Shown here: piece by piece, positions 48,766-51,278 of the stretch
Layout: every line of letters begins with the position of its first letter
How positions within the stretch are numbered: the first letter of the stretch is position 1
Notes under the pieces: model-generated
Told to the model about the DNA's origin: nothing
Databases searched by the model: none
The model's input: only the letters and a program-made list of their open reading frames with translations
Position numbers and translations under genes: made by a program
Assembly (NCBI GenBank): GCA_003559855.1
Contig: PWJZ01000085.1
Coordinates: forward strand, 1-51,278
Source of the DNA: Bacteroidales bacterium
GTDB taxonomy: Bacteria; Bacteroidota; Bacteroidia; Bacteroidales; UBA7960
Direction: 5' to 3'
Length of the DNA stretch: 51,278 nt

Positions 48766-50558
48766 ATGAAAACATATACATTCTTATTACTTTTTTTTTT
48801 GTAATTACAAACATAAAAGTGGATGCAGGCGAGATCACATTAAGTTTCACTGCAAATCACAATAACACTCATGTGAAAATCGACAGCATTTTTATTGAAA
48901 ACATTACCCAGGGCGCTGACAAGATGCTTTATGGTGATGACACTCTTCTGACACTGGTTATTACGCATATTGATATTTTAGAGGGCTTGTATAATGACCT
49001 GTACGTTTCACAGAATTACCCGAATCCTTTTTTATCAGAAACGAACATAGATGTATATGTTCCGGTAGCGGATTTTTTCTCTTTGGATGTTTATGATCTG
49101 ACAGGTCGTAAGTTGACAAGTTATGGGTCTGTTCTGCAACCTGGAATGCATCATTTCACTTTTCATGCTTGCAACCTTCAAAATTATTTTTTAACTGTGG
49201 GCTCTGAAAAGTATAAGCAGCAGCGTATAATGATACAGATAGGTATGGCGGGCAGGTATTCTTCGAAGATAACTTACAATGGCATTTCCATGCAAATGAA
49301 AACAGGGCGGTATGGCAGGTCGGATACCGGTTTCCCTTTTAATTTGGGTGATGAACTTAAATTTACCGGTTATTCTACAGGCAATTATGGTAATGTTGGT
49401 TATGATACTATTATTGATACTCCAACAACCGATAGGGATTATGTTTTTGATATAATTTATCCGGTGTACCTGCTCACATTGCTTGCAGATCCTGAATATG
49501 GCGGCGCCGTGGATGGCGAAGGTGAATATGAAGAGGGTGAAGAAGTAAACATTTCTGCAACTGCTGCCGAAGGTTACAAATTTATTGGCTGGACAGATGA
49601 AACAGGCATGGTGATAAGCGAAGATGCCAGCTTTGATTATACAATGCCGGCTGAAGATATTACGCTGACAGCCAATTTTGAAGAAACAGAAATACCCGTT
49701 TATACTCTTACTCTTTTGGTTGAACCGGAAGGAAGCGGCACGGTTGAAGGCGATGGTGAATACGTGGAAGTCGAGAAAGTGATAATTTCCGCTGAAGCAA
49801 ATGAAGGCTGGGAGTTTATTGAATGGACAGGCGACACAGAGCATGTTGATAATCCCGGATCAGCAACTGCAATAGTAACTATGCCCGCTGAAAATATTAC
49901 GCTGACAGCCAACTTTGAAATAGGAGAAGGATATATTATAGATATAGAAGGAAACATTTATAAAACTGTAATTATAGGTGATTATGAATGGATGGCGGAA
50001 AACCTGAGAACTGCCACTTACAATAATGGTGCGGAAATACCAAATGTAACAGATAATGGTGAATGGAGCAACCTGACTAACGGAGCATATTGCTGGTATT
50101 TTAATCAAATATATTATGGTGAAATTTTTGGTGCACTTTATAATTGGTACGCTGTTGAAACAGATAAGCTTTGCCCTGAGGGCTGGCGGGTACCAACGGA
50201 TGAAGAGTGGAAAAACCTGGAGGGCTCAGTTGACAGCCAATATGGAGTTGGTGACCCCGAATGGAATAAGACAGGGTGGCGGGGTTATGATGTGGGAGAT
50301 AAGCTAAAGTCAACTACAGGCTGGGAAGAAGGTGGTAATGGCACTGATGATTACGACTTTACAGCTCTTCCGGGCGGTTTCCGAAACTTTACGGGTGTTT
50401 TTATGAACATTAACTGGTTTGGATTCTGGTGGTCTTCCACCGAACACAATGATCCTAATTCGTGGAACCGTGGTTTACGTTACGATGTCAGCACCTCAGG
50501 CAGAGATAACTACTATAAAAAAGCCGGATTCTCCGTGCGTTGTTTAACAGATATATAG
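48766..50558 (+). CDS. FISUMP-domain surface protein with InlB-like repeats; signal peptide out of frame at a T10 tract
   Basis: The main open frame (from GTG 48819 to 50558, 579 residues) lacks a signal peptide. An ATG at 48766 encodes MKTYTFLLLFF, a good signal start, but the frame stops at 48802-48804 after a run of ten T (48791-48800). Adding one T would join it as MKTYTFLLLFFFVITNIK to VDAGEITLSF in the long frame. Domains of the long frame: a T9SS-sorting-like segment near residues 60-130 (VSQNYPNPFLSETNIDVYVP, LDVYDLTGRKL), two InlB/Flg_new-like repeats at about 216-290 and 296-368 (YTLTLLVEPEGSGTVEGDGE, ITLTANFE), and a C-terminal Fibrobacter-succinogenes-type paralogous domain (FISUMP) from about 370 (YEWMAENLRTATYNNG, CPEGWRVPTDEEW, FWWSSTEHND, GFSVRCL). 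Probably a cell-surface protein, perhaps phase-variable. Confidence 0.82.
48791..48800 (+). repeat. T10 homopolymer in the signal-peptide region
   Basis: Ten consecutive T between codons for LLL and VIT of the putative signal peptide. As given, the ATG at 48766 is out of frame with the long ORF; 11 T (or 8) would restore it. Confidence 0.85.
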
Positions 50559-50790
50559 ACATGATGTCTTAAAATTAACTAAAAACTGGTTTTTAAAATC
50601 AATCCTTGTTACACTATTTTGTTGTTTGCTTCTGCGTGATGTTGGCATTGTAAATATTGAAAAAGTTAAATCCAAATATGATAAAATTTCTAAAAAAACC
50701 ATTTTTTGTTTAATAAAATTCTTAATTTTGCAATCCGAAAACTGAGAACGGCAAAAATGTCTTTATAATTTTTAATTAGATTATATTTAT
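50559..50790. other. Spacer before the tRNA-derived array
   Basis: 232 bp, AT-rich, no ORF. A small palindrome (AGACAT-G-ATGTCT) lies just after the FISUMP stop. Probably contains the promoter of the tRNA array. Confidence 0.4.
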
Positions 50791-51029
50791 TCCTCCTTAG
50801 CTCAGTTGGTTAGTGTCCCGCATGTGCGGGATTAATCAGAGGAGTCAACGAGGAAAAAGTAAAAAATATTCCTCCTTAGCTCAGTTGGTTAGAGTCCCGC
50901 ATGTGCGGGATTAATCAGAGGAGTCAACGAGGGAAAAAGTAAAAAATATTCCTCCTTAGCTCAGTTGGTTAGAGTCCCGAAACTGCGGGATTAATCAGAG
51001 GAGACAACGAGGAAAAAAGTAAAAAATAT
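50791..51029 (+). repeat. Three tandem ~80-bp tRNA-Asn-derived units with replaced anticodon arm
   Basis: Units at 50791-50869, 50870-50949 and 50950-51029 (79, 80, 80 bp). Each starts with the same first 25 bases as the tRNA-Asn that follows (acceptor 5' strand TCCTCCT, D-arm GCTCAGTTGGTTAGAG; the first unit has one change). The 10 bases CATCTGACTG of the tRNA are replaced by a 16-base hairpin (TCCCGCATGTGCGGGA in units 1 and 2, TCCCGAAACTGCGGGA in unit 3). The tRNA word TTAATCAGAGG follows, then a non-tRNA tail (AGTCAACGAGGA, A/T-rich linker). There is no T-arm and no normal anticodon stem, so they cannot be functional tRNAs. Confidence 0.85.
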
Positions 51030-51103
51030 TCCTCCTTAGCTCAGTTGGTTAGAGCATCTGACTGTTAATCAGAGGGTCCCTGGTTCGAGTCCAGGAGGGG
51101 GAG
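51030..51103 (+). tRNA. tRNA-Asn (GUU anticodon)
   Basis: Full cloverleaf by eye: acceptor TCCTCCT/AGGGGGA (one G-T pair), D-arm GCTC..GAGC, anticodon arm TCTGA-CTGTTAA-TCAGA with anticodon GTT, variable GGGTC, T-arm CCTGG-TTCGAGT-CCAGG, discriminator G. CCA is not encoded. It is the fourth and only intact unit of the array, in the same orientation and with the same ~80-bp phase. Confidence 0.95.
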
Positions 51104-51214
51104 CTTGATAAAAACCACATATGGAAAGGTTCTGTATGTGGCTTTTTGTCTCTATTGAAAACACTAAAGAATCGAAAAATAATTGAGAAATTAATTGACG
51201 GCGATGCTATGGCC

Positions 51215-51278
51215 GGCAAATTAGCTCAGCTGATTAGAGTCCCGCATGTGCGGGATTAATCAGAGGGTCCCTGGTTCG
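51215..51278 (+). other. Partial tRNA-like sequence with the same hairpin replacement, cut by the window end
   Basis: Acceptor-like GGCAAAT, TA, D-arm GCTCAGCTGATTAGAG (different from tRNA-Asn), then TCCCGCATGTGCGGGA at 51240-51255, TTAATCAGAGGGTCCC and TGGTTCG, which match the 3' half of tRNA-Asn. A chimera of another tRNA's 5' half, the inserted hairpin and a tRNA-Asn-like T-arm. The rest lies beyond the window. Confidence 0.7.

Follow-up and report, generated by a model that had tools for sequence, protein, structure and literature searches.

How does an intact tRNA-Asn gene come to stand behind a row of damaged copies of its own 5' half, each with a palindrome in place of the anticodon? 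The window analysed here, 51,278 nucleotides long, is an entire contig (G000:C93) of a draft Bacteroidales genome of 2.97 Mb in 131 contigs, and contains one tandem array with a period of 80, 3.3 copies and 96% matches, in phase with the tRNA-Asn gene. The three units of about 80 bp, their palindromes and the in-phase intact gene are as described in an initial annotation of this DNA, according to repeat period, ARAGORN and Rfam. That description of the array was correct, but it missed a further copy downstream, the link to a GIY-YIG gene, the promoter, the other tRNAs involved and the copying from the local tRNA.

The array and its surroundings

Every unit of the array consists of a 25-nt 5' part, TCCTCCTTAGCTCAGTTGGTTAGAG, followed by a 16-nt inverted repeat, the segment TTAATCAGAGG and an AT-rich tail; in unit 1 the 5' part terminates in GTG instead of GAG. 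The origin of the units from tRNA-Asn and their amplification in phase with it, both proposed earlier, are supported, and the tail does replace the T-arm as had been stated, being predicted in addition to pair with the 5' strand of the acceptor and D-arm. A tRNA intron was considered and rejected: CATCTGACTG, to which the first base of the anticodon belongs, is replaced by the palindrome, and the T-arm is missing from the units of the array. The intact gene is the sole tRNA in the window (by ARAGORN, and by Rfam at the gathering cut-off) and the only tRNA-Asn among 30 examined tRNA loci, of the 41 tRNA matches over the cut-off in the genome. At up to three mismatches the palindrome joined to TTAATCAGAGG has four matches in the genome, all inside the window, and its reversed control has none; because of this difference, and because the layout recurs in other genomes, the array is beyond chance. 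Just 5' of it, a 579-aa ORF (48819-50558, + strand) has two repeated blocks and looks like a surface protein.

Features of the window around the array, in order of position
Feature	Position	Strand	Description
Promoter-like sequence	50705..50730	+	TTTG at 50705-50708, 14-nt gap, TAATTTTG at 50723-50730
Array unit 1	50791..50869	+	tRNA-Asn 5' half, palindrome at 50816-50831, TTAATCAGAGG, tail
Array unit 2	50870..50949	+	Palindrome at 50895-50910; predicted rod-shaped RNA hairpin, z = -6.6
Array unit 3	50950..51029	+	Variant palindrome TCCCGAAACTGCGGGA at 50975-50990
Intact tRNA-Asn(GUU)	51030..51104	+	ARAGORN, and Rfam at gathering cut-off (69.3 bits)
Terminator-like hairpin	51115..51147	+	CCACATA/TATGTGG, then TTTTT; read from the sequence
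GIY-YIG endonuclease remnant	51146..51259	+	C-terminal part, ending in KNRKIIEKLIDGDAMAGKLAQLIRVPHVRD and a stop; reads into the pseudo-tRNA
Further copy, downstream type	51221..51278	+	D-arm, palindrome at 51240-51255, TTAATCAGAGG, T-arm start

On the 3' side of the tRNA, the terminator-like hairpin resembles, in alignment, the matching place in a locus of the same genus (L308). The remnant of a GIY-YIG endonuclease gene is fused in frame to the further copy, with its stop codon within TTAATCAGAGG directly behind the palindrome; the copy has a T-arm start as in the local tRNA and is cut by the contig end. The remnant matches its relatives in blastp (49% over 45 columns) and in hhalign (probability 98.8 over 37 columns). 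No Pfam domain was found in it; the window holds a C-terminal remnant only, without the catalytic core. Elsewhere in the genome, no Asn-type GIY-YIG gene was found and nothing matched an alignment of 18 GIY-YIG proteins (A1) at E <= 1e-10. Two other GIY-YIG genes of this genome, C115:35630-35851 (L181) and C97:42837-42971 (L183), have no tRNA-type tail; one is interrupted by a stop and the other is partial.

Recurrence of the layout and GIY-YIG genes beside tRNAs

Recurrence was sought with a pattern of tRNA-Asn 5' half, insert of 12-42 nt and TTAATCAGAGG. Units with the palindrome TCCCG-N6-CGGGA are present in 11 of 47 genomes of the family, that of the window included, and the pattern was found in 94 stretches of a species collection of genome contigs, of which 80, from among the matches listed, were examined. 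Among the matches listed, the unit-bearing records belong to Bacteroidota groups, Chlorobiota or Ignavibacteria, and the inserts are nearly all 16-nt palindromes. The same structure is carried by the isolates Mesohalobacter halotolerans, Pedobacter paludis and Crocinitomix algicola, on contigs of 0.2-1 Mb. The window's own 16-mer, for which a search of relatives had been proposed as a test, occurs in unit context in L097, L101, L103, L150, L151 and L159.

After exclusion of the own-genome repeats of the window (L077, L083, L086), 98 loci entered the comparison, 96 of them with units; L143 and L157, without units by script, carry other inserts. Removal of ten duplicates, overlaps or second matches on one contig left 86 unit loci, of which 60 have an intact tRNA-Asn within the stretch examined and 26 do not. 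In most of these 26 (exceptions are L129 and L139) the units lie near the end of the stretch, which need not be a contig end, as the collection loci look like 8-kb pieces. The usual order is promoter, zero to 11 units, intact tRNA-Asn, and one or more GIY-YIG genes ending in a palindrome-bearing pseudo-tRNA. Upstream units, in 1 to 11 copies 5' of the intact tRNA-Asn, are made up of the 5' strand of the acceptor, the D-arm, a palindrome, TTAATCAGAGG and a tail; downstream units make up the terminal part of a GIY-YIG gene and retain a larger share of the tRNA 3' half. With units classed by acceptor sequence, upstream units are present at 35 of the 60 non-duplicate loci with intact tRNA-Asn, and a GIY-YIG gene or downstream unit is also present at 26 of these 35. 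The other nine have neither despite at least 500 bp of following sequence, so an array can exist without the gene nearby. All 70 GIY-YIG domain matches in the 86 loci are on the strand of the units, and none is on the opposite strand. At L135 and L325, tRNA-Asn loci of the same layout, three complete tRNA-Asn copies carry a 20-nt palindrome in the anticodon arm and are apparently intermediate between an intact tRNA and an array unit.

The units are of local origin. With units classed by position, which changes the labels slightly, the 7-nt acceptor strand of upstream units equals that of the local tRNA-Asn at 32 of 40 loci (permuted mean 8.0, maximum 15 in 2000 permutations), and thus the arrays were made or corrected locally. 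Among 47 downstream-type units compared, the 3' half is identical to that of the local tRNA in 13, and mean identity is 0.75 to the local tRNA versus 0.64 to non-local tRNAs; by eye, the T-arm region of 18 of the 47 holds a further palindrome of the TCCCG type. The idea that this is a hot spot of tRNA-gene recombination, raised in the initial annotation, is supported.

The intact relatives of the remnant encode a conserved nuclease. Two tyrosines, R, H and E are among the residues invariant in the 18 aligned rows, and we take these to be the GIY-YIG active-site set; PF01541 matches all three relatives scanned with E values of 7e-13 to 1e-16. A median dN/dS of 0.28 over 19 pairs places the core of the nuclease under purifying selection. 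In the LAQLVRV tail synonymous sites are conserved (pS 0.36, versus 0.84 in the core), which was not used as evidence because most loci had been picked by exact DNA pattern. A structure model (pLDDT 92.4) has its best Foldseek matches in 6seh, 7wme and 4xlg (E 2.7e-4 to 7.9e-4) and later ones in 1zg2, 1ywl and 1ln0; the sequence matches 1ywl at E 0.00057 and Slx1 at E 0.002. As the predicted fold is nearest to Slx1, followed by UPF0213 proteins and I-TevI, structure-specific cutting of DNA by the GIY-YIG protein is plausible. Searches of PADLOC defence families gave only weak matches (E of at least 0.0046), for one of three proteins, and NCBIfam gave no match for three proteins. A viral origin was also considered and set aside, no relative having been confirmed in viral contigs by DNA pattern or by a one-peptide protein scan.

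The association with tRNAs was surveyed from the protein side by searching A1 against 148 sampled genomes of the phylum, 69 of which have matches at E <= 1e-10. The Asn palindrome subtype, at E < 1e-40, is present in only two of the 148, and the other matches, among those listed, are sister sequences, none stronger than E 4e-24. From among the matches listed, 110 Bacteroidota loci (30 + 80; most, not all, of the best matches) were taken as a set free of the bias of choosing loci by exact DNA pattern; the distinct GIY-YIG ORFs in this set number 152 and form 112 clusters. A tRNA on the same strand lies beside or inside 92 of these 112 clusters from the matches listed, an intact tRNA being upstream of 79, downstream of seven and inside six; four clusters were scored as edge and 16 as none, among them L237, in which the GIY-YIG frame and the beginning of a tRNA-Val overlap. 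No opposite-strand tRNA accompanies any of the 152 ORFs in the 110 loci. Other ORFs of the same loci have a tRNA in their windows in 2 of 17 cases, a control set too small to use. Among the upstream tRNAs are 20 isoacceptors, and the median distance from the tRNA to the beginning of the domain match is 44 bp.

The same survey ties palindromes and tRNA fragments to these genes. Of 147 windows at GIY-YIG 3' ends, 48 contain a CCCG...CGGG palindrome, as do 3 of 502 control windows. In 68 of 99 matches, the DNA 3' of the gene is a better fit to the gene's own upstream tRNA than to tRNAs of other isotypes, of which up to 60 were compared. The first 23 nt of the tRNA itself are copied upstream at 24 of 109 tRNAs; inspected by eye, 20 of these 24 copies, which lie at tRNAs for Asn, Val, Arg, Ser, Gln, Gly, Ala and Pro, contain an inverted repeat. 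The upstream copies at L233, L245, L282 and L296 resemble tRNAs with an intact anticodon arm, and L208, L243, L250 and L252 have two upstream copies each. Small GIY-YIG genes in Bacteroidota thus adjoin intact tRNA genes on the same strand, and duplicated tRNA pieces often carry a palindrome, commonly TCCCG...CGGGA, that replaces the anticodon arm or the T-arm. Because this pairing was found from the protein side, the layout of the window is one case of a wider rule; neither link is universal, since the palindrome core is missing from most of the 3' ends and some clusters have no tRNA.

Two unusual arrangements were met in these loci. In L227 (G106:C34:5500-11500) eight GIY-YIG domains follow one another every 365 bp or so, and no adjoining tRNA was scored in the stretch examined. 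At L237, L259, L271, L276, L277, L282, L285 and L294 the order is mirrored, with a dead 5' half followed by the GIY-YIG gene and then the intact tRNA; by eye, the dead halves have an inverted repeat in all but L282.

We favour, with moderate confidence, the reading in which a GIY-YIG element of homing type lives on tRNA genes and has the array as its upstream part, made up of scars and amplified cassettes. Cutting and homing by the nuclease are what we infer: the enzyme would make its cut in the tRNA locus or in a hairpin extruded there, and recombination through tRNA homology would then insert or duplicate a cassette, leaving one intact tRNA. The palindrome would be a mark in the dead copy, serving as a recognition site, as protection from recutting, or being an inserted end, and repeated rounds or unequal crossing-over would produce the tandem array. 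At the locus in the window, the GIY-YIG gene would have decayed to its C-terminus while the array persisted between promoter and tRNA-Asn, where it is probably transcribed as a leader of rod-like hairpins. The intact tRNA that remains here speaks against this reading, as a classical homing gene disrupts its own site. So do the arrays that have neither gene nor downstream unit, the failure to find an Asn-type GIY-YIG gene elsewhere in the genome of the window, the presence of the Asn subtype in only two of the 148 sampled genomes, the clusters and 3' ends that lack a tRNA or the palindrome core, and the lack of a confirmed relative in viral contigs with the one-peptide pattern.

Alternative readings of the array

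It is possible, but in our estimate unlikely, that the array instead works as RNA, a leader of rod-like hairpins that sets the output of tRNA-Asn or yields small RNAs (RNase III products, for instance, or bait for tRNA-cutting enzymes), the nuclease gene having merely spread it. The placement of promoters favours this. In 30 of 49 arrays the 150 nt that precede the first unit contain the pattern TTG-N17-23-TAnnTTTG, against 0.5 expected from mononucleotide shuffles, and TAnnTTTG occurs in none of 58 inter-unit spacers. The promoter-like sequence of the window resembles the -33/-7 elements of Bacteroidota; its gap is shorter than the 17-23 nt of the scan, so that only the TAnnTTTG part scores, and it aligns with the region before tRNA-Asn in an array-free genome of the same genus. 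Of the family tRNA-Asn loci, 19 of 21 were scored without an upstream unit, and the median distance from the start of the box to the tRNA is 46 nt; L317, with its box at 138 nt, was counted as unit-free by script, yet one shortened unit is visible. In the array-free family loci the tRNA-Asn lies directly behind the promoter-like box, and in the same-genus locus L308 the tRNA occupies the position held by unit 1 in the window. The array therefore lies between promoter and tRNA.

Folding predictions point the same way. Unit 2 as RNA is predicted to form one rod (-30.9 versus -14.9 kcal/mol), and its z score of -6.6 with RNA parameters compares with -1.9 with DNA parameters. Across 49 loci, units with their own tails fold at -27.1 kcal/mol, as against -26.4 with swapped tails (the best of 60 sets reaching -26.9) and -23.9 with shuffled tails (the best of 40 sets reaching -25.0). 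The effect of the own tail is modest, and its small size counts against the array's working as RNA, as does the weakness of the pairing between acceptor and tail alone, where 5 of 200 swaps were as low and which was replaced by the whole-unit test. When the array is folded as a whole, pairing between units 1 and 2 is predicted as well. A tRNA-like RNA made from the units was rejected as a candidate: the predicted folds are rods and no cloverleaf, the Rfam tRNA model does not match the array units even at E <= 5, and of known Rfam families only the intact tRNA exceeds its gathering cut-off, other matches being far below their gathering scores. Earlier proposals that the units are tRNA-processing decoys or a trap for an anticodon nuclease find no support; with one predicted rod per unit, release of tRNA-like RNA by RNase P/Z is unlikely from structure.

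The palindromes are kept as inverted repeats. In 117 combinations of locus and palindrome, pairs 1-6 are Watson-Crick in 112 to 116, with C-G 61 times, T-A 26 times and A-T 24 times at pair 6. In 48 distinct rows, 98.6% of cells pair, pair 6 is AU in 17, CG in 13, UA in 13 and GC in one, and the covariation score of 0.235 was reached in none of 500 shuffles. These paired changes bear out the earlier view that the units are not in neutral decay, and they count in favour of a role as RNA; but template switching can also keep short palindromes perfect without selection on RNA, so that they show the inverted repeat to be kept, not RNA action. The patchy distribution (11 of 47 family genomes by the pattern) is a further argument against function as RNA, and no units precede tRNA-Asn in the same-genus genomes in which that gene was found, G001 and G002.

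That the palindrome is a separate REP-like repeat landing in expendable tRNA copies, with the GIY-YIG gene as a fellow traveller, seems improbable. For it speak the 25 places of TCCCG-N6-CGGGA in the genome of the window (reversed control 1), of which 21 are outside the window and three have the same 16-mer in another repeat context, and also the occurrence of palindromes with different centres on different arms of one pseudo-tRNA. Against it are the enrichment at GIY-YIG 3' ends described above, and the junctions (GAG, palindrome, TTAATC), which are alike in nearly all matches, though the search pattern favours such uniformity. Also against it, upstream and downstream palindromes of one locus, classed by acceptor sequence, are more alike than permuted ones by a statistic that ignores kinship (18 loci, 0 of 5000). 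As an abundant genome-wide repeat the palindrome was rejected, having only 25 places, most of them with other centres. The three 16-mers outside the window (C94:67577, C90:4823 and C65:85; L041, L042 and L043) belong to a dispersed repeat, approximately ...TTTCTCCCGCATGTGCGGGACAGCAATCAAGC..., outside any tRNA context. In the upstream unit of L320 (G040:C265) a second palindrome takes the place of some of the D-arm, in addition to the palindrome in the anticodon arm.

That a decaying tRNA pseudogene was duplicated in tandem without selection, or that the assembly is wrong, is very improbable: the contig does end inside a unit, and among the matches listed, those of G016, G024, G034 and G036, four of the 11 family genomes with the pattern, all fall within 230 bp of a contig start, but the paired changes, the promoter pattern and the purifying selection on the nuclease core all stand against it, and since the unit recurs in the 11 genomes and the 94 stretches, long contigs of isolates included, it is not an assembly error.

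The GIY-YIG element on tRNA genes thus remains our preferred explanation. A broader proposal, which we put forward only tentatively, is that such elements occur phylum-wide, the nuclease using tRNAs as landing pads and leaving palindromes in the loops of duplicated tRNA halves, and that the arrays, transcribed from the tRNA promoter as rods, may act in a contest over tRNAs between cell, phage and tRNA-cutting toxin. Should our preferred explanation be right, a common but unremarked gene family (69 of 148 genomes) would be parked in one orientation on essential tRNA genes, offering a testable case of a homing-type gene that occupies an essential gene without killing its host and a link to the tRNA amplification that SegB drives in phages. 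GIY-YIG C-termini that consist of translated tRNA sequence would also be accounted for, and the window would hold a natural array of probably transcribed hairpins before a tRNA.

Comparison with known systems

Several known systems share single traits with this locus. REP/REPIN sequences are short palindromes that flank the gene of RAYT, a Y1 (HUH) transposase, and resemble the present case in the tie to a nuclease-type gene; here the enzyme is a GIY-YIG protein, not a Y1 transposase, and the palindrome lies inside tRNA copies. Integrase-driven elements likewise use a tRNA gene as their address and leave an intact tRNA, with an integrase gene next to a copy of the tRNA 3' end; the present upstream copies are 5' halves in which a palindrome replaces tRNA bases. 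Slx1, a eukaryotic repair enzyme with a partner protein, is a branched-DNA nuclease for which we know of no link to tRNAs or arrays; its likeness to the GIY-YIG protein, as that of UPF0213 proteins and the I-TevI catalytic domain, is one of fold.

A GIY-YIG nuclease, Ssn, is said to cut repeats of the dRS3 type, with site-specific cutting of single-stranded DNA; no paper on Ssn cutting such repeats was found in the literature searched. The likeness consists in a short palindrome with CCC...GGG arms and in a GIY-YIG nuclease. The dRS3 sequence of Neisseria, ATTCCC(N8)GGGAAT, has 646-725 copies per genome and no link to tRNAs in the available part of its description (PMC3898611). An Ssn-type motif would be present hundreds of times per genome, and the palindrome here has its 25 places, with three of the same centre outside the window.

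The initial annotation knew of no described system with this layout. To that extent it stands, as no description of bacterial GIY-YIG genes with palindromic tRNA copies was found among the titles listed in the literature searched; but phage SegB (PMC13096335) is close in kind. SegB, of T6-like phages, is a GIY-YIG homing endonuclease. Its gene lies close to tRNAs of many isotypes, and the enzyme drives amplification of the tRNA-segB segment in tandem, with microhomology between the 3' end of segB and the 5' end of the tRNA (PMC13096335). The amplified unit of SegB, in the same account, is a full-length tRNA with a truncated SegB in a phage genome, whereas here the locus is chromosomal and the copies are dead; they bear palindromes and form arrays upstream of the tRNA, and neither "palindrom-" nor "hairpin" occurs in the main text of PMC13096335. 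An intact catalytic domain, as expected of a SegB-like locus, is replaced in the window by the C-terminal remnant. As with SegB, small GIY-YIG genes lie near tRNAs of many isotypes, with homology between the 3' end of the gene and the tRNA, and tandem amplification is seen here both in the arrays and in tandem GIY-YIG copies. SegB is the nearest precedent for the proposed GIY-YIG element on tRNA genes.
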